A stretch of DNA of 54,897 nucleotides, from positions 1 to 54,897 of the forward strand of contig JAAYPI010000007.1 in NCBI GenBank assembly GCA_012519885.1. Direction: 5' to 3'. This DNA comes from Bacteroidales bacterium (GTDB taxonomy: Bacteria; Bacteroidota; Bacteroidia; Bacteroidales; Paludibacteraceae). Positions 8,173 through 20,244 of the stretch are shown here, one piece after another. Under the pieces are notes generated by a model. The model did not search any database and was not told the DNA's origin. It was given only the letters and a program-made list of their open reading frames with translations. The translations under genes were made by a program, and so were the position numbers. Numbering within the stretch: the first letter of the stretch is position 1; each line of letters starts with the position of its first letter.

Positions 8173-10329
8173 TTATTCAGCCACCTTGCTCTTTTCGTAC
8201 TCTTTAAGCAAGGCATCTTGCACATCAGAAGGCAGTAATTCGTAAGAAGCAAATTTCATGCTAAAAGAAGCCCTTCCCCGAGTATTAGAACTCAACGAAA
8301 TGGAATAATTGTTCATTTCTTTTAATGGAACTTTCGCAAATATTTTTTCCATACCTTTGTCTGATTCCATTCCCATTATCAACGCCCTGCGTCCTTGCAA
8401 ATCGCTCATTACATCGCCCATACTTGCACTAGGCACTAGCACTTCTACATCATATATAGGCTCTAATACTTTTGGTCCTGCATTTTTAAAAGCCTCGCTA
8501 AAAGCATATTTACCCGCCAAACGGAAAGATATTTCGTTAGAATCTACTGGGTGCATTTTTCCATCATACACAATTACACGGATATCACGTGCATACGAAC
8601 CTGTTAGCGGACCTTGCTCCATACAATCCATTATTCCTTTTTGAATAGCAGGCAAAAATCGAGCATCAATCACACCACCTACAATACTGTTAATAAACAC
8701 AAGCTTCCCACCCCACTCTAGTGGATATTCTTGTTTATCACGTACAGAAATTTTTATTTCCTGTCCACTAATCTTATACACTTCTTTTTCAGGAACACCT
8801 TCTACACATGGTTCAATAATCAAATGTACCTCGCCAAACTGACCCGCACCACCCGACTGTTTTTTATGTCGGTAATCCGCTCGAGCTGTTTTCGTAATGG
8901 TTTCTCTGTATGGAATACGTGGATTTGAATAATTAATCAAGATTTTATCGTTATTTTCGATACGCCATTTAAGTGTTTTGAGATGAAATTCTCCTTGTCC
9001 ATGAACAATCGTTTGTTTTAATTCTTTAGAGTATTCAATTATCCAAGTTGGGTCTTCCTCGTGCATGCGAGTTAACACCTCACTTAGTTTTTCCTCATCA
9101 GCCTGATTAACCGCTGCAATTGCTTTACGGAATTTCCATTCGGGATATTTAATAAAATCAAACTGTAAGTCAGCATTTTTTCCGTTTAAGGTATTGGATG
9201 TACGCGTATTTTTGAGCTTAACTGTGGCACCAATATCGCCTGCTACTAATTCATCCACTTTTGTTCTAATACTTCCACACACAGCGTAGATTTGAGTTAA
9301 TCGCTCTTTGCTTTGGCGAGTAGCATTATACAAATCATCACCTTCTTTTACTTTTCCAGACATCACCTTAAAGAAAGAGACTTCGCCAATATGAGGCTCT
9401 ACAGAGGTTTTAAACACATAAATAGAAGCGTTATTTTCTTGTAATGGAGCAACCTCTTCTCCATTGCTTGCTACAGGAGCTGCCGAATCCCTAACATAGG
9501 GAACTACATTCCCTAAAAATTCCATCAAACGACGCACGCCCATATCCTTGGCAGCACTAATGCAAAAAACAGGAAAAATATCACGATGCACCAAGCCAAA
9601 ACGAATACCCATACGCATTTCATCTTCAGTCAAATTACCATCGGCAAAATATTTTTCCATCAAATTTTCCTCATGTTCTGCAGCTGCCTCCACTAAAATA
9701 TTGTGCAATTCGGAAGCTCGTTGAAGTTCATTGGCTGGAATATCGCTAATCGTTGGTACGCCACCATCAGGTTTCCACGTATACAACTTCATTAGCAATA
9801 CATCTACAACGGCATTAAAAGCAGGTCCCGTTTGAATCGGATATTGAATAAGTACCACTTTATTGCCAAAATTTTGACGCAAATCATCCACTGTTTTATC
9901 AAAATCTGCTTTTTCATGGTCAAGTTGATTCACGACAAATATGCATGGTTTTTTAAGTTTCTCTATTTGCCTGTATTGATTTTGCGTACCCACTTCCACA
10001 CCATGTTGTGCATTAATAAGCATTAACGCAGTGTCGGTAACACTAAGCGAAGTAATCAAACCGCCCACAAAGTCGTCAGCACCTGGACAATCTATCATAT
10101 TCAGCTTTCTGCCCATCCATTCAGAATGAAAAACAGTTGGAAAAACAGAGTAACCATACTCATGTTCGACAGGAAAATAATCAGAAACCGTATTTTTTGC
10201 TTCAATACTGCCTCTACGTTTTATAACTCCACTCTCAAAGAGCATTGCTTCAGTGAGCGTGGTTTTTCCTGAGCCAGAAGATCCCACAAGTGAGATATTC
10301 TTAATTTCATTTGTTTGATACACTTTCAT
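8173..10329 (-). CDS. Elongation factor G paralogue (EF-G2 type)
   Basis: Translational GTPase of the EF-G family, 718 residues from the chosen ATG at 10329. The frame stays open to 10482, but that extension is hydrophobic and unlike EF-G. G1 is GSSGSGKTT (residues 16-24) instead of the AHIDAGKTT of housekeeping EF-G, and G3 is DCPGADDF. G4 reads NQLD where NKxD is usual. The G2 segment SVFPTVFHSEW is the divergent EF-G2 type. Domains II, IV (from about 470) and V follow with full length. It is therefore probably a secondary EF-G rather than FusA. Its role, in translation under special conditions or ribosome maintenance, is unknown. It stands alone, with no str-operon genes nearby. Confidence 0.88.
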   Translation of the reverse strand: MKVYQTNEIKNISLVGSSGSGKTTLTEAMLFESGVIKRRGSIEAKNTVSDYFPVEHEYGYSVFPTVFHSEWMGRKLNMIDCPGADDFVGGLITSLSVTDTALMLINAQHGVEVGTQNQYRQIEKLKKPCIFVVNQLDHEKADFDKTVDDLRQNFGNKVVLIQYPIQTGPAFNAVVDVLLMKLYTWKPDGGVPTISDIPANELQRASELHNILVEAAAEHEENLMEKYFADGNLTEDEMRMGIRFGLVHRDIFPVFCISAAKDMGVRRLMEFLGNVVPYVRDSAAPVASNGEEVAPLQENNASIYVFKTSVEPHIGEVSFFKVMSGKVKEGDDLYNATRQSKERLTQIYAVCGSIRTKVDELVAGDIGATVKLKNTRTSNTLNGKNADLQFDFIKYPEWKFRKAIAAVNQADEEKLSEVLTRMHEEDPTWIIEYSKELKQTIVHGQGEFHLKTLKWRIENNDKILINYSNPRIPYRETITKTARADYRHKKQSGGAGQFGEVHLIIEPCVEGVPEKEVYKISGQEIKISVRDKQEYPLEWGGKLVFINSIVGGVIDARFLPAIQKGIMDCMEQGPLTGSYARDIRVIVYDGKMHPVDSNEISFRLAGKYAFSEAFKNAGPKVLEPIYDVEVLVPSASMGDVMSDLQGRRALIMGMESDKGMEKIFAKVPLKEMNNYSISLSSNTRGRASFSMKFASYELLPSDVQDALLKEYEKSKVAE

Positions 10330-10517
10330 ACAATTATTGGTATTAAGGTTACTAAATTGTTGTAAACGAATCCCTCGAAAGCAAAAAAAATGCCTTGCAA
10401 TGTAGGAAATAGTTAGTAAAAAAACAATAGTGAAAATATGTTGTGTAACAATATTTGTAACAATTTTGTAATATGAAGCCAAAAATCTGTTAATTTAAAG
10501 ACTTAGTAAACCAATAT

Positions 10518-10550
10518 TTTGTAGTTAATTGTATTTTGCCCGTATATTCG
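10518..10550 (+). promoter_or_regulatory. Predicted promoter of candidate small RNA A
   Basis: TTTG (10518-10521), a 21-bp spacer and TATATTCG (10543-10550), which is one base from TAnnTTTG. The start would fall at about 10557, where the block shared with the second locus begins. Confidence 0.45.
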
Positions 10551-10554
10551 CATA

Positions 10555-10624
10555 TGATTTTTTCATAGTATTTGATTTTAAGGTTAGCAAGTAGGTAGTC
10601 AGGCGAGACTACCTTTTGTTTTTT
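10555..10624 (+). ncRNA. Candidate small RNA A (conserved block plus terminator hairpin)
   Basis: In the gap between ychF and the EF-G gene, a 32-nt block (10555-10586, core AGTATTTGATTTTAAGGTTA) is followed by a hairpin AGGTAGTC (10593-10600) / GACTACCT (10607-10614) and the T-rich run TTTGTTTTTT. The same block with the same order of parts occurs on the minus strand at 15484-15558. No upstream plus-strand gene would need this terminator, so an independent transcript of about 70 nt is likely. No ORF of useful length is present. Its function is unknown. Confidence 0.45.
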
Positions 10625-10637
10625 ATAGGGGTACCAA

Positions 10638-10668
10638 AAAAAGGGGGAAACAATGTTTCCCCCTTTTT
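10638..10668 (-). terminator. Terminator of ychF
   Basis: Perfect stem with AAAAAGGGGGAAAC and its complement around a 3-nt loop. Read on the minus strand it ends in a run of T, 27 bp after the ychF stop codon. The rest of the 10330-10694 gap holds candidate small RNA A and the presumed EF-G leader. Confidence 0.85.
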
Positions 10669-14005: not shown

Positions 14006-14377
14006 ATGCTACAATTTGTACGTTCATATTGGAAAACCATTGTAACAGCAATCTTCATTGCGTATTTGTCGCTATTCAAACCAAATAGCACCATTCAACT
14101 ACCTCCTATTCCTTTTGTAGATAAATGGATACACATTGTTCTGTATACTACGCTAACAGCAGTAGCCCTACTTGACACAAAAAAAAGAAAAAATAATACG
14201 TCATCATTTCTTCTTGTATTGTTAATTAGCATTCTATATGGAGGTTTGATGGAAATATTGCAACAGTTTTTCCCTCCTCGCACCAGCAGTTGGTACGATT
14301 TTTTGGCAAATATACTTGGCTGTTTACTTGCTTTTGGTAGTATTACATGGTTTGTTAAGAAAAAAAGAAATGGATAA
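14006..14377 (+). CDS. VanZ-like small membrane protein
   Basis: A 123-residue integral membrane protein of the VanZ-like family. Four hydrophobic segments can be seen, with the typical FVDKWIHIVLYTTLTAVAL pattern near residues 30-50 and the GGLMEILQQFFPPRTSSWYDF motif near 80-100, whose E-x-x-Q core is conserved in the family. Molecular function is unknown; vanZ itself confers low-level teicoplanin resistance, but most homologues are unlinked to it. The ATG at 14006 is chosen; one at 13988 overlapping hemW is also possible. The 3' end overlaps dprA by 8 bp. Confidence 0.85.
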   Translation: MLQFVRSYWKTIVTAIFIAYLSLFKPNSTIQLPPIPFVDKWIHIVLYTTLTAVALLDTKKRKNNTSSFLLVLLISILYGGLMEILQQFFPPRTSSWYDFLANILGCLLAFGSITWFVKKKRNG

Positions 14378-15485
14378 CAAACTTCTATACCAAATAGCCA
14401 TTACTCAAATTAAAGGATTAGGCAGTATAAATAGTAAAAATTTACTCGCCTATGTGGGTGATATTGAAGAAATATTTCATCAAAAATCGCATATTTTACA
14501 AAAAATACCGGGTATTGGGATTCTGTTAAGCAAAAGCATTCTTGAACAAAAAGATGCTGCACTCGAAAAAGCCACCAAAGAAATTCAATTTATCACTAAA
14601 CATGGCATTACACCTCTTTTCTATACCGATAAGAATTATCCAGAACGATTAAAAGAATGTCCAGATGCTCCAATTCTGTTGTATTATAAAGGAAATACAA
14701 ATTTAAATACACAAAAAACCTTAGCCATTGTAGGCACACGCAATGCAACTGAATATGGCAAAACAATGTGTACTCAACTTATTAAAGAGTTAGCAAACAA
14801 TCATCCTGATTTGTGCATCATTAGTGGTTTAGCCTATGGTATAGATATTTGTGCTCACAAAGAAGCCTTACACATGCACTTACCAACTGTAGCTGTATTG
14901 GGTCATGGTTTAGACAGAATTTACCCTGCTCAACATGCTACAATAGCCAAAAAGATACTTACATCAGGTGGTTTACTTACAGAATTTCCGAGCGAAACAA
15001 ATGCAGATAAGCCTAATTTTGTGCGTCGAAATCGCATTATCGCAGGTACAACAGACGCTACACTTATTGTTGAAAGTGCTGCACGTGGTGGTGCTATTAT
15101 TACTACCGAAATAGCTAATTCATATAACAGAGATGTGTTTGCTGTGCCCGGTAAATGTACTGATGAATGGTCGGTAGGTTGCAATAACCTAATAAAACAG
15201 CACAAAGCAGCATTAGTGAATAGTGCTTCTGATATTGAATATATTATGGGTTGGACAAAAGAACAAACAAGCCAAAAAATAGAACAACAACAATCTTTGT
15301 TTGTAGATTTATCCGATACAGAACAAGAAATTATTACAATTATCAAACAAAATAAAGTCGTTCATATAGATGTGTTGGCGATAAAAATAAGCAAAAGCAT
15401 AAAAGATTTATCGCCCATATTGCTTTCTATGGAATTTAAAGGTGTAATAAAATGTTTACCAGGTAATATTTACTCGGTAGTATAA
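14370..15485 (+). CDS. dprA: DprA/Smf, DNA-processing protein
   Basis: Cytoplasmic protein that binds incoming single-stranded DNA and loads RecA during natural transformation; it is also widespread in non-competent species. From the ATG at 14370 it has 371 residues. An N-terminal helix-hairpin-helix-like region comes first (about 8-60), followed by the Rossmann-like DprA domain with LAIVGTRNATEYGK, SGLAYGID, LGHGLDRIYP and FVRRNRIIAG. The C-terminal winged-helix domain DML1 lies at about 300-371. It overlaps the VanZ-like gene by 8 bp, indicating coupling. Its hairpin terminator at 15491-15527 is shared with the convergent candidate small RNA B. Confidence 0.95.
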   Translation: MDNKLLYQIAITQIKGLGSINSKNLLAYVGDIEEIFHQKSHILQKIPGIGILLSKSILEQKDAALEKATKEIQFITKHGITPLFYTDKNYPERLKECPDAPILLYYKGNTNLNTQKTLAIVGTRNATEYGKTMCTQLIKELANNHPDLCIISGLAYGIDICAHKEALHMHLPTVAVLGHGLDRIYPAQHATIAKKILTSGGLLTEFPSETNADKPNFVRRNRIIAGTTDATLIVESAARGGAIITTEIANSYNRDVFAVPGKCTDEWSVGCNNLIKQHKAALVNSASDIEYIMGWTKEQTSQKIEQQQSLFVDLSDTEQEIITIIKQNKVVHIDVLAIKISKSIKDLSPILLSMEFKGVIKCLPGNIYSVV

Positions 15486-15558
15486 ACACAAAAGGGACTA
15501 ATACCTTGCTAGTATTAATCCCTTTTTATTAACCTTAAATCAAATACTTTGAAAATCA
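15484..15558 (-). ncRNA. Candidate small RNA B (same family as the one at 10555)
   Basis: Read on the minus strand, the block at 15558-15530 is nearly identical to that of candidate A (28 of 29 positions, with three single-base gaps). It is followed by a hairpin (GGGATTAATAC / GTATTAGTCCC, 15522-15494) and CCCTTTTGTGTTT. The stem has a G-T wobble when read on this strand but a C-A mismatch on the other, which favours minus-strand RNA. The hairpin also acts as terminator for dprA on the plus strand. The predicted transcript is about 75 nt. Function is unknown. Confidence 0.45.
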
Positions 15559-15563
15559 CACTA

Positions 15564-15598
15564 CAAAAGTATACTGATTTATAGGATATTGTATCAAA
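15564..15598 (-). promoter_or_regulatory. Predicted promoter of candidate small RNA B
   Basis: On the minus strand, TTTG (15598-15595), a 23-bp spacer and a perfect -7 box TACTTTTG (15571-15564). The predicted start is near 15557, the first base of the conserved block, as at locus A. Confidence 0.5.
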
Positions 15599-17063: not shown

Positions 17064-17975
17064 ATGAAAGAAACAGTTGCAAAACCATTTTTAAAATGGG
17101 CTGGCGGTAAAACACAGCTTATTGCTGATATAGAAAAGGCATTGCCTAAAAATTTATTGAAAGATGAATTTATCTATATTGAACCATTTGTGGGCAGTGG
17201 TGCTGTACTTTTTTGGATGTTAAATAACTTCCCTAATTTAAAGAAAGCTATTATTAATGATATTAACGAAGATTTAATTAATACATATAAAGTTATTGCT
17301 ACTTATCCACATAAATTAATTCAAGTATTGGAATTATTTCAAAATGAATTTTATCTATTAGAAGATAAAATTGATGAAAAAAAAGAGTATTACTATAAAA
17401 AAAGAACTTTATATAATACTAGAAAAGAAGATATTATAACACAAGCAGCCTTATTTATTTTTCTTAATCGCACCTGTTTCAATGGCTTATATAGAGTGAA
17501 TAAAAACAATGAATTTAATGTACCAATGGGAAGTTATAAAAGACCTACCATTTGCGATAAGGAAAATATAGTAGCAGTGAGTAAAGCTTTACAAAATGTA
17601 GAAATTTTGTGTGGTGATTTTGAACTAACCCTCAATTACGTAACTAATAATTCATTATTTTATTTTGATCCACCTTATAAACCATTAAGTGAAACATCAA
17701 GTTTTAATGCTTATTCTAAAGATGAATTTAACGATAAAGAGCAAATTAGATTAAGAAATTTTTGCCATAAACTCGAAAAATTAGGACACAAATGGTTACT
17801 GAGTAATTCAGATGTAAAAGGAAAAGATGTGAATAATAATTTCTTTGATGATATTTATTCAAAGTTTTCAATTTTAAGAGTGAAAGCGAGAAGAAATATT
17901 AATGCTAATCCTGAAAAAAGAGGTGAATTAACGGAGTTATTAATAACAAATACTAATTTAACAATAACAATATGA
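17064..17975 (+). CDS. Dam-type adenine-N6 DNA methyltransferase (D12 class)
   Basis: DNA methyltransferase of the alpha class, resembling Dam and M.DpnII, which methylate the adenine of GATC. The 303 residues show the SAM-binding motif X KWAGGK at 11-16, motif I PFVGSG at 41-46 and catalytic motif IV DPPY at 202-205. The target-recognition segment lies between I and IV, with the LNRTCFNGLYRVN region conserved in Dam enzymes. Specificity for GATC is inferred from family similarity. The stop overlaps the start of the next gene, a PD-ExK nuclease, by 4 bp (ATGA), which strongly suggests a modification-restriction pair. Confidence 0.9.
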   Translation: MKETVAKPFLKWAGGKTQLIADIEKALPKNLLKDEFIYIEPFVGSGAVLFWMLNNFPNLKKAIINDINEDLINTYKVIATYPHKLIQVLELFQNEFYLLEDKIDEKKEYYYKKRTLYNTRKEDIITQAALFIFLNRTCFNGLYRVNKNNEFNVPMGSYKRPTICDKENIVAVSKALQNVEILCGDFELTLNYVTNNSLFYFDPPYKPLSETSSFNAYSKDEFNDKEQIRLRNFCHKLEKLGHKWLLSNSDVKGKDVNNNFFDDIYSKFSILRVKARRNINANPEKRGELTELLITNTNLTITI

Positions 17976-18493
17976 TATTTGGAGGAAAAGGAGGAGGAAA
18001 TACTAAAACAGGACTAGTTTTTGAAGGCCATACTGATTTGTCAGATTTTTTAAATTTACAAAAAGGGTACAAAGTTGAAAATGGCAAGGTTTTTTTTCAT
18101 GGTAAATTAGTTGGAAGAATATTTAAAAAACATGGGTTTTATAAATTTTTAGAAGAATTAAAAATTGAATGGAAAACTTTGATTTCAAAGAGGTTATTAC
18201 CAGATGATAGTATTTTTGTAATTATTGCAAATACTTTGTTTATTATTGAATGTAAATTTCAACAAGTTGCGGGTTCTGTAGATGAAAAACTTCAAACATG
18301 TGATTTTAAACGTAAACAATATCAAAAATTATTAGCACCAGCAAATATCGAAGTTGAATACATTTATCTTTTAAGTGATTGGTTTAGAAAACCTGAATAT
18401 AAAGATGTTTTAAATTACATTCATAGTGTTCATTGTTTCTACTTTTTTGAATATATTCCGCTATCAAAATTAGGGTTACCTATACCAAAATAA
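17972..18493 (+). CDS. Putative restriction endonuclease with PD-(D/E)xK motif
   Basis: Small protein of 173 residues that I do not recognise as a named family. It has a clear PD-(D/E)xK nuclease signature: P77-D78-D79, a hydrophobic beta strand, then E93-C94-K95 (FIIECKFQ), with a basic helix containing a Q-x(3)-R-K-Q pattern after it. The spacing of 14 residues between PD and ExK is typical. It lies immediately downstream of, and coupled to, the Dam-type methylase, so it is the likely cognate restriction enzyme. It is much shorter than, and does not resemble, the DpnII/MboI endonuclease (about 280 aa). The N-terminus is glycine-rich. Confidence 0.7.
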   Translation: MIFGGKGGGNTKTGLVFEGHTDLSDFLNLQKGYKVENGKVFFHGKLVGRIFKKHGFYKFLEELKIEWKTLISKRLLPDDSIFVIIANTLFIIECKFQQVAGSVDEKLQTCDFKRKQYQKLLAPANIEVEYIYLLSDWFRKPEYKDVLNYIHSVHCFYFFEYIPLSKLGLPIPK

Positions 18494-18550
18494 TAATTTA
18501 TAATAACAGATTTAATTGGGTAAAAATTATATTTTATCATTATTTTTCAC

Positions 18551-18558
18551 TATATTTG
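18551..18558 (+). promoter_or_regulatory. -7 box before the small ORF and beta-class methylase
   Basis: TATATTTG matches TAnnTTTG, 25 bp before the 83-aa ORF. It suggests that the second half of the island has its own promoter. No -33 box is obvious. Confidence 0.5.
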
Positions 18559-18582
18559 TATAGAAAAATTTAAGATGAAAAT

Positions 18583-18834
18583 ATGCAAGTTGATATAAAA
18601 AATCCCACATATATTCCAAACAAAATCAAATCATTATACGAATATTTAGTTTCTGTTGAAGAATCATTAACATGGTATTATTGTGGATTGTGTGTTGAAA
18701 TAGATCCTATTTTTGATTTTAACGGAGATGATGCATTGATAAGATGGGTTGATATTAATGAAGGTTTTAACGATAAGTTAATTGTACATTCTCTCGAACA
18801 ATTTAAAGATAACTTTAAGTTGACTAATGATTAG
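18583..18834 (+). CDS. Small acidic protein of unknown function in the restriction island
   Basis: An 83-residue soluble, acidic protein rich in aromatic and Asp/Glu residues. No helix-turn-helix, nuclease or metal motif is visible, so it does not look like a controller protein. Its 3' end overlaps the start of the following methylase by 8 bp, and a -7 box lies just upstream, which supports it as a real gene. It could be an accessory or immunity-type protein, for example a nucleic-acid mimic, but this is only suggested by acidity and position. Confidence 0.6.
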   Translation: MQVDIKNPTYIPNKIKSLYEYLVSVEESLTWYYCGLCVEIDPIFDFNGDDALIRWVDINEGFNDKLIVHSLEQFKDNFKLTND

Positions 18835-19705
18835 TCCCTACTTCAAATCAACCGATAAAAATTTCTATCTTCTTCACGGAGATACAATGGATTTGTTGCC
18901 CAAATTTGACCATAAATTTGATATGGTTTTTGCTGATCCACCTTATTTCTTGTCTAATAATGGTTTAAGTATTCAAAATGGTGAAATTGTAAGCGTTAAT
19001 AAGGGATTTTGGGATAAATCAGAAGGGTTTGATTTTATAAATGACTTCAATCGCAAATGGCTTTCATTAGTGCGAGACAAAATGAAAGACGATGCCACTA
19101 TTTGGATAAGTGGCACTATGCATAATATATTTTCAGTTGGTCAGATCCTAACGGAATTAGGTTTTAAAATTTTGAACGTAATTACGTGGGAGAAAACAAA
19201 TCCACCGCCTAACTTTTCTTGTCGTTTTTTTACTCACTCAACCGAGCAGATTATTTGGGCACGAAAGTCCGAGAAAGTTCCTCATTACTTTAATTATGAG
19301 TTAATGAAACAACTAAATGGAGACAAACAAATGAAAGATGTTTGGAAACTCCCCGCAATTGCTCCTTGGGAAAAATCGTGTGGCAAACATCCAACACAAA
19401 AACCGTTGTCTGTTTTGACACGACTTATACTAGCCTCAACGCGTCCAAACGCTTGGATATTAGATCCTTTTACAGGCAGTAGTACAACAGGAATTGCAGC
19501 TAATTTGGCAAATAGAAAGTTTTTAGGAATTGACCAAGAAGAAGAATTTTTGATTATCAGCAAAAATAGAAAACTAGAGATTGAAAATCTTATGTTAGCG
19601 GCTAATTACAAACAAAAAATACGAGGTTTTACCAATAAGAAGGAATTGGAATTATTCTTGGTTGAAGAACCAAAAGTTGACTATACAAAAGAATTACTAT
19701 TATGA
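18827..19705 (+). CDS. Beta-class DNA adenine/cytosine-N4 methyltransferase (DpnA/HinfI-like)
   Basis: Second methyltransferase of the island. Motif order is beta-class: catalytic motif IV ADPPY at 36-40 comes first, then the recognition region, and motif I DPFTGSSTT at 213-221 near the C-terminus, preceded by HPTQKP (188-193). The 292-aa size fits M2.DpnII (DpnA), M.HinfI and similar enzymes. In DpnII-type systems a Dam-like and a DpnA-like methylase occur together and modify the same GATC site. The same pairing here suggests a shared target, but the target is not proven. It overlaps the next gene by 4 bp. Confidence 0.88.
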   Translation: MISPYFKSTDKNFYLLHGDTMDLLPKFDHKFDMVFADPPYFLSNNGLSIQNGEIVSVNKGFWDKSEGFDFINDFNRKWLSLVRDKMKDDATIWISGTMHNIFSVGQILTELGFKILNVITWEKTNPPPNFSCRFFTHSTEQIIWARKSEKVPHYFNYELMKQLNGDKQMKDVWKLPAIAPWEKSCGKHPTQKPLSVLTRLILASTRPNAWILDPFTGSSTTGIAANLANRKFLGIDQEEEFLIISKNRKLEIENLMLAANYKQKIRGFTNKKELELFLVEEPKVDYTKELLL

Positions 19706-20244
19706 GCTTACCGAATATGTTATCAAGAGGGAAAGAGCCTCTTGCTGTATTTCCCGTAAATGGTAAATATGTGTTAGCTGTTTATAAAGGAAAAATTTCT
19801 GAGTTTGATTTACTATTAAAATATAGGCAAAGAGACGATTCAAAAAAATCGGGATGGTCGAACATTAGAACCCCAAAGCATATACATTGGGCTGTTGATG
19901 TTTTGCTAAAAATGCATTCTAACGAAGAAGAGACAAAACGATTTCTTGATTTTTTGACAATGATTTGGGACACACAAACGGTACCATTACGTACTGAGGT
20001 AGAAAGAAGAAATCGTTTAGATGTTGATCGTTTATTGACAGAAGTAAACATAGAAGCGTTAAACTATGAATCTCTTGCAGACAAAGGTGAGTATAGTATT
20101 AAATTTCTTATTTTAATTGCACGTCTTTTGATGATTCAAGAAAAAACGAATATGGAAACAGCGTTTATGTTCAAACAGCTTATAGATGCTTTAAAAGCAG
20201 GACAAGATATTTTTAAAATAATATCAATAGCGACTCACAGATAA
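19702..20244 (+). CDS. Unrecognised 180-aa protein coupled to the beta-class methylase
   Basis: I do not recognise this family. The protein is soluble and mostly helical, with an N-terminal beta-rich part (about 10-40), a motif PKHIHWAVDVLLKMH near 53-67, WDTQTVPLRTEVERR near 90-104 and a helical C-terminus. There is no obvious PD-ExK, HNH or GIY-YIG motif. It starts inside the methylase stop region (4-bp overlap), so it is translated with that gene. It is followed by a strong terminator, making it the end of the island. It could be a second restriction subunit or a specificity/accessory factor; this is inferred from position only. Confidence 0.65.
   Translation: MSLPNMLSRGKEPLAVFPVNGKYVLAVYKGKISEFDLLLKYRQRDDSKKSGWSNIRTPKHIHWAVDVLLKMHSNEEETKRFLDFLTMIWDTQTVPLRTEVERRNRLDVDRLLTEVNIEALNYESLADKGEYSIKFLILIARLLMIQEKTNMETAFMFKQLIDALKAGQDIFKIISIATHR

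Follow-up and report, generated by a model that had tools for sequence, protein, structure and literature searches.

The DNA analysed here (the window) is the 54,897-nucleotide contig JAAYPI010000007.1, one of 219 contigs in the 2.28-Mb assembly GCA_012519885.1 of a Bacteroidales bacterium assigned to the Paludibacteraceae. Two of its intergenic regions, locus A on the plus strand and locus B on the minus strand, each carry a predicted promoter, a conserved block of about 30 nt and a hairpin followed by a T-rich run (Table 1). Aligned by eye, the blocks (10555-10586 plus; 15558-15530 minus) are identical at 28 of 29 positions apart from three single-base gaps, which bears out the initial annotation, and the promoter boxes of both loci lie where that annotation had placed them. 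Locus A is divergent from fusA2, the gene for elongation factor G2 (EF-G2), and faces on its other side the converging minus-strand gene 11897-10695, which we take to encode a YchF-like GTPase. The symmetric hairpin between the two is probably the terminator of this converging gene and would lie outside the RNA. Farther along the window, positions 17064-20244 hold a putative restriction-modification cluster.

Table 1. Features of the window, with positions counted from its first nucleotide
Feature	Position	Strand	Basis
EF-G2 gene (fusA2), divergent neighbour of locus A	8173-10329	-	NF058620 EFG2_Bacteroid, 1316 bits, cut-off 1000; Pfam EF-G domains
Predicted FopS pairing site over EF-G2 start codon (TAACCTTAA ... 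ATGAAA)	10324-10356	-	-18.1 kcal/mol
Cur-like palindrome ATTGTTACACAACATA upstream of EF-G2	10437-10452	-	2 mismatches to TATGTTN4AACATA (consensus as given in PMC3878776)
Predicted promoter, locus A	10518-10550	+	-33 TTTG 10518-10521, 21-nt spacer, -7 box TATATTCG 10543-10550
FopS sRNA gene, locus A	10556-10625	+	RF04319, 53.0 bits, E 5.5e-7 genome-wide, model positions 1-71 of 71
Conserved 5' seed GAUUUUUUCAUAGUAUUUGAUUUUAAGGUUA, locus A	10556-10586	+	mostly unpaired in predicted fold
Rho-independent terminator hairpin and T-rich run, locus A	10586-10625	+	predicted fold
Second symmetric hairpin, flanked by A and T runs	10636-10668		sequence reading
FopS sRNA gene, locus B	15487-15559	-	RF04319, 47.7 bits, E 5.9e-6 genome-wide
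Predicted promoter, locus B	15564-15598	-	TTTG 15598-15595, 23-nt spacer, TACTTTTG 15571-15564
D12-class adenine methyltransferase	17064-17975		Pfam
PD-(D/E)XK nuclease-like protein	17972-18493		Pfam
N6/N4 methylase	18827-19705		Pfam
180-aa protein without Pfam match	19702-20244		Pfam search

The core of the block, which had been thought to belong to no described RNA, is contained in the FopS family of sRNAs (Rfam RF04319). An Rfam scan of the window at default cut-offs returned no match at all, and a permissive scan of a short stretch named RF04319 with both loci covered end to end. The two loci and two further copies on another contig of the genome (C50) all match over model positions 1-71 of 71, with genome-wide E values of 2.1e-7 to 7.3e-6. 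Their scores, which are 55.2 and 47.2 bits for the C50 copies, fall 0.8-8.8 bits below the Rfam cut-off of 56, a curated search threshold and not a biological feature, and a default scan therefore misses all four. Judged by sequence, loci A and B are slightly divergent members of the known FopS family and do not form a new one.

In Bacteroides thetaiotaomicron, FopS is described as an RNA of about 65-70 nt with a single-stranded 5' seed, a Rho-independent terminator and a sigma-ABfr promoter, seen on northern blots; it binds near the start codon of susC-type mRNAs, abolishes translation in vitro and is counteracted by the RRM protein RbpB (PMC11697453). The trans-acting sRNA family of about 70-75 nt proposed in the initial annotation agrees with this published homologue. 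By analogy with B. thetaiotaomicron, the RNAs of the present genome would be transcribed, would repress translation and may be antagonized by an RRM protein, and two RRM_1 proteins, the candidate partners, are encoded in the genome. The copies share with the FopS described in PMC11697453 the 5' seed, the -33/-7 promoter, the 3' terminator, a multicopy arrangement and a length here predicted, solely from promoter and terminator, at about 70 nt. They differ from it in number, with four copies against the 12-15 reported there, and in the seed, which reads UUUGAU for UUAGAU and has extra U's in three copies. Further differences are that they score just under the Rfam cut-off and belong to another bacterial family, that SusC targeting is unsupported in their genome and that none of the four promoters has a Cur palindrome.

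The scores below the FopS cut-off, the UUUGAU seed where most FopS sequences have UUAGAU, the SusC start that is not favoured, and a seed common to GibS and BTnc231 could also be accounted for by an sRNA family distinct from FopS that has the GibS/FopS 5' seed (R1) and differs from FopS in targets and role. GibS (RF04182), which has in common with FopS the R1 5' seed and start-codon pairing, differs in its length of about 145 nt, a second seed R2, two middle hairpins and a PM2 promoter (as described in PMC7366714), and was rejected as the identity of the two loci, with 32.8 bits at A and 33.8 bits at B against a cut-off of 115 and the middle of the model mostly skipped. BTnc231 (RF04180) has a similar 5' end and reaches 36.2 bits at locus A, and its 154-nt model, with a cut-off of 80.4, includes a second hairpin whose stem falls at locus A on the symmetric hairpin 10636-10668; among the matches listed there was none for BTnc231 at locus B or at the C50 copies. 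A separate family is unlikely in view of these far lower scores, obtained by pulling in the second hairpin, and of FopS matches that span the full length. Sequences from the same bacterial family also bridge the gap, among them G320 C18:41776-41851 (71.8 bits), which begins GATTTTTTCATAGTATTAGATTTAAGGTTA and is separated from block A by a single substitution and a single insertion.

In the 2.28-Mb genome the core AGTATTTGATTT-N0-2-AAGGTTA is present in exactly four places and its reversed control in none, so that recurrence of the block goes beyond chance. The initial annotation had named multiple genomic copies as a check on its proposal, and two were found beyond the pair noted there, by a DNA search with locus A. 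These lie on the minus strand of C50 at 7882-7813 and 4325-4255 and are closer to locus A than locus B is, with 97% and 90% identity over the matched part. The hairpin of C50:4255 contains a compensatory change from T-A to C-G (GGTAGTC/GACTACC against GGCAGTC/GACTGCC). The two C50 copies (C50:4255-7882) are 3.5 kb apart on the same strand, with a secreted-protein gene and a transporter gene, presumably TrkH-like, that reads as two frames between them. Tandem arrays of three to four FopS genes, spaced about 220-470 bp apart, occur in three other genomes of the same bacterial family (L276-L286 in G421, G464 and G446).

A -33/-7 promoter of the sigma-ABfr type with the seed at the 5' end of the RNA is present, with deviations, in the copies of this genome: locus A has TATATTCG as its -7 box, the 23-nt spacer of locus B is long, and C50:4255 has only TTG at -33. 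All four copies have the 3' hairpin and T-rich run, and this hairpin is found in the predicted folds of both window RNAs, whose whole-fold z-scores against dinucleotide shuffles are -3.2 for A and -4.5 for B. Toward the 5' end, weak structures are predicted, namely a 4-bp AUGA/UCAU hairpin (-1.3 kcal/mol) in the seed of locus A and, at locus B, a self-fold of 10 pairs (-1.0 kcal/mol) within the 5' part; in three of the FopS copies the prediction is a weak 5' hairpin of 4-5 bp with the rest of the seed unpaired. Folded alone, the 5' parts of the four copies give -0.8 to -1.3 kcal/mol and that of the FopS consensus 0.

Searching beyond this genome with a covariance model, a further check put forward in the initial annotation, gave RF04319 matches in many Bacteroidales genomes. 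At E<=1e-3, 137 of the 150 genomes sampled from the same bacterial family have a FopS match, and 121 have one above the cut-off. In the order, 88 of 393 sampled genomes have a match (75 above the cut-off), under 27 family labels as counted from the listing. In the phylum the number is seven of 395; six of these belong to the same order, the present genome included, and one to the same class outside it. All three surveys used stricter filters, by which weak matches are lost. The single match from beyond the order (L195, G631:C1:2970447-2970515, 43.9 bits) is FopS-like, retains the hairpin and has no -7 box at the usual distance.

At FopS loci elsewhere, the distance from the end of a -7 box TAnnTTYG to the RNA start is 3-6 nt in 77 of 80 loci of one set and 67 of 67 of another. 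Both sets were chosen and are non-random, the first consisting of copies from multi-copy genomes, picked among the best-scoring rows of the order and family surveys, and the second of 69 loci fetched by score, some sharing a genome, from which L185 (too little upstream sequence) and L195 (no seed match) were dropped. In an earlier set, which includes one row (L191) taken from the wrong strand, 49 of 51 rows have the box, compared with 20 of 2347 control windows, each 17 nt long. The expectation of a kept 5' block beside a freely varying hairpin is likewise supported, as the first 30 nt of 50 FopS rows, cut by covariance-model coordinates, have seven forms, one of them shared by 40 rows, and positions 37-60 have 38. 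In each of the 130 distinct bodies the hairpin part has a fold of <=-6 kcal/mol, and 31 stems are represented among them; the seed pattern by which strands and bodies were taken restricts the seed variation that can be seen.

These regularities bear on two explanations that dispense with an RNA. A block that is short, intergenic and multi-copy, with two copies 3.5 kb apart on C50 and with a phage reported to carry FopS (PMC11697453), may be a repeated DNA element such as a protein-binding or recombination site, to which promoter and hairpin are incidental. The -7 box at a fixed distance in the 80- and 67-locus sets and the folding of every one of the 130 bodies argue against this, as do the northern blots on which the homologues appear as RNAs (PMC11697453), and a DNA element is very improbable. 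Alternatively, the hairpins could serve as terminators of neighbouring genes alone, with the blocks as untranscribed remnants: 2 nt separate the end of locus B from the stop codon of gene 14316-15485 on the plus strand, and a hairpin of this kind can act on both strands. This is hardly to be expected of a -7 box, seed and T-run that are conserved together on the RNA strand, of four copies in one genome and presence in 137 of 150 family genomes, or of a locus A that is retained upstream of EF-G2 in another genome (L017). Loci A and B are very probably two of four fopS genes, which from their own promoters would give RNAs of about 70 nt that block initiation at start regions.

Each fopS gene would produce its RNA of roughly 70 nt from a sigma-ABfr-type promoter of its own. 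The conserved 5' part UUUUUUCAUAGUAUUUGAUUUUAAGGUUA is predicted to be complementary to the start regions of certain mRNAs, where UUUUUUCAU would pair with AUGAAAAA, and UUAAGGUUA with a UAACCUUAA whose end lies about 8-13 nt upstream. Such pairing would hide the start codon and thereby block initiation. The hairpin would terminate the RNA and probably stabilize it, a role under which its sequence may vary.

Pairing in the genome itself was evaluated on two samples. In the first, 231 gene starts from 292,683 bases comprising the window and 12 stretches, which is biased since the contigs were named by earlier searches, some of them by FopS similarity, 22 starts reach <=-16 kcal/mol, against five mid-gene windows and 5.9 for shuffled RNAs, and none of 60 shuffles reaches 22. 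In the second, 145 gene starts from 192,552 bases on 20 contigs chosen blind, 12 starts reach this level against a mean of 4.0 for dinucleotide-shuffled RNAs, with none of 200 reaching 12. Starts are no better in this blind sample than mid-gene windows of the same genes, with 12 against 12 at <=-16 kcal/mol and means of -10.74 and -10.72. At <=-18 kcal/mol the corresponding numbers are six starts, five mid-gene windows and 1.3 for shuffled RNAs, one shuffle reaching six. The FopS seed has more partners in its own genome than shuffled RNAs have, and a preference for starts is not seen on the blind sample.

Among individual genes, strong duplexes over the start codon are predicted for a secreted CotH-domain protein (-26.1 kcal/mol), a Cthe_2159 carbohydrate-binding lipoprotein (-29.0 kcal/mol) and a secreted 501-aa protein without Pfam match (-28.4 kcal/mol), the last two of which, like the CotH contig, were met through likeness to the antisense of the RNA. 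The motif TAACCTTAA-N3-18-ATG is not enriched in the genome: its reversed control gives 23 matches and the motif itself 12, of which three are fopS genes and two are one overlapping place. Among 60 selected genomes (40 that have FopS and 20 that lack it), the matches listed for TAACCTTAA-N4-16-ATGAAA are mostly fopS genes in antisense, and no genome-wide target motif emerges. SusC is not a favoured target in this genome: the sole SusC over the cut-off pairs at -13.3 kcal/mol and ranks 33rd of 130 starts, a ranking that includes loci fetched for FopS resemblance and through which other TonB-type receptors are scattered. Signal-peptide-like starts do not pair significantly better than others in the 231-start sample (p 0.15). 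FopS may repress a set of secreted and metabolic proteins in this bacterium.

The start of EF-G2, beside locus A, is the best FopS partner of the 45 gene starts in the window (-18.1 kcal/mol). For 79 EF-G2 loci of other genomes, the mean pairing energy between the FopS consensus and the start region is -16.1 kcal/mol, in windows that open 27 nt ahead of the start codon because codon 2 was the first in the search query; windows shifted by 30-180 nt give only -8.3 to -11.8 kcal/mol, and none of 1000 shuffled RNAs reaches this mean, the lowest being at -15.6. Other starts of the same loci average -10.9 kcal/mol (n=332), and those beginning ATGAAA, ATGAAG or ATGAGA -11.4 kcal/mol (n=99). Pairing at <=-20 kcal/mol is found for 14 of 79 EF-G2 starts and one of 332 others. 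The orthologues are non-independent, their leaders forming 33 clusters of which one has 34 members; 18 of the 33 cluster means are <=-14 kcal/mol and seven are <=-18 kcal/mol. FopS is present in 76 of the 79 genomes with these EF-G2 genes, a co-occurrence explained in part by phylogeny, as the genomes were picked by nearness to the EF-G2 of the window, and the three without it are too few to serve as a control. By these computations, complementarity between the 5' part of FopS and the start region of EF-G2 mRNA extends across the Bacteroidales. Family sequence, promoter, terminator and copy number are likewise shown here, together with seed complementarity to individual starts, that of EF-G2 foremost.

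By EF-G2, the nearest named relatives are Paludibacter and Paludibacteraceae MAGs, L016 being identical over 654 matched residues and L017 89% identical. A sequence pattern for the FopS core finds it adjoining EF-G2 at one of 80 loci, that of L017, while the sequence of L016 starts inside the gene, and the adjacency seems confined to the nearest relative. The bin Go_Inlet_bin_99 (L016 and L064) has two EF-G2 contigs, one identical to that of the window (654 matched residues) and one 72% identical, and is either a mixed bin or has a second copy. A record titled Paenibacillus sp. (L062) encodes a Bacteroidales-type EF-G2 with 70% identity and has seven FopS matches, and its title is probably wrong.

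EF-G2, a translation factor of starvation, is activated in Bacteroides by Cur, the master regulator of carbohydrate use, and is the gene most strongly so. In the window, the centre of the Cur-like palindrome lies 115 nt upstream of the EF-G2 start codon. Among upstream regions of EF-G2, the palindrome (<=2 mismatches) is found in 59 of 80, with 4.2 expected from shuffles, and where a single -7 candidate is present it ends 48-49 nt from the palindrome centre in 34 of 47; in none of the 59 is there a -7 candidate 22-27 nt from the centre. Binding of Cur at fusA2 is reported to require a matching 22-bp site (PMC6989115).

A Cur palindrome is also present near the -33 position of 54 of 129 FopS promoters elsewhere and of none of the four in this genome. 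With at most one mismatch, ATGTT-N4-AACAT occurs upstream of 27 of the 80 FopS genes (in 10 of 20 genomes) and of 34 of the 67, including L151, L154, L172, L187, L237, L257 and L266, against 0.45 and 0.5 in shuffled upstream regions and 0 of 441 windows farther away. The centre of the palindrome lies at -26 to -31 in all but one of these promoters, and in 56 of 58 promoters that have the site the -7 box ends 22-27 nt downstream of this centre. The inverted repeat fits the Cur/BT4338 consensus wwwTATGTTnTAnAACATAwww given in PMC3878776 and is on that ground read as a putative Cur site. The four promoters of the present genome have no Cur palindrome within two mismatches, and the possible link to Cur therefore concerns the FopS family and not the window.

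As to the sign of Cur action, repression of FopS appears the likelier, as a site at -28 should block the polymerase, in contrast to EF-G2, which Cur activates in Bacteroides. A TTTG -33 box is found in one of 54 FopS promoters with the palindrome, against 40 of 75 without it, and this near-absence would also fit an activator that replaces the box, so that activation is possible. FopS is reported to be about 3-fold lower on N-glycan than on glucose (PMC11697453) and Cur to be silenced by glucose (PMC10294740), which together fit loosely with repression of FopS by Cur. The sRNAs BTnc140, BTnc195 and BTnc364 are described as lying near Cur sites and rising on carbon limitation (PMC10294740), and would argue for activation if they were FopS members. 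Another sRNA, MasB, is placed in the Cur regulon as activated (PMC10994844), and an unknown regulator has been suggested to enhance FopS transcription under bile salts (PMC11697453). A link of FopS to Cur or to EF-G2 is absent from the text passages of open-access journal papers that were searched, among them PMC11697453, PMC10994844 and PMC12596196.

Taken together, a wider reading can be put forward tentatively, at a strength that falls somewhat short of probable, in which FopS would serve the Cur carbon-limitation circuit as its RNA arm throughout the Bacteroidales and would pair over the starts of EF-G2 and sugar-uptake mRNAs. Many FopS promoters would be bound by Cur at their palindrome, at about -28, and switched by it, with repression the likelier outcome. 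With ample sugar, EF-G2 and uptake systems would be held untranslated by FopS; under carbon limitation, Cur would both increase transcription of EF-G2 and take away the RNA that keeps EF-G2 from being translated. In the present genome the arm from Cur to FopS is missing, and locus A adjoins EF-G2 and is predicted to pair with it.

The candidate sRNA pair of the window now has a name, FopS, and a family described as conserved within the Bacteroidaceae is now found in most sampled genomes of another family. The main interest lies in the leads to Cur and EF-G2 that were exposed by the neighbourhood of locus A. If these are true, the best-known carbohydrate regulator of gut Bacteroides would be linked to a large sRNA family and to an alternative elongation factor, which could explain a translational hold on uptake genes and EF-G2 when sugar is present.
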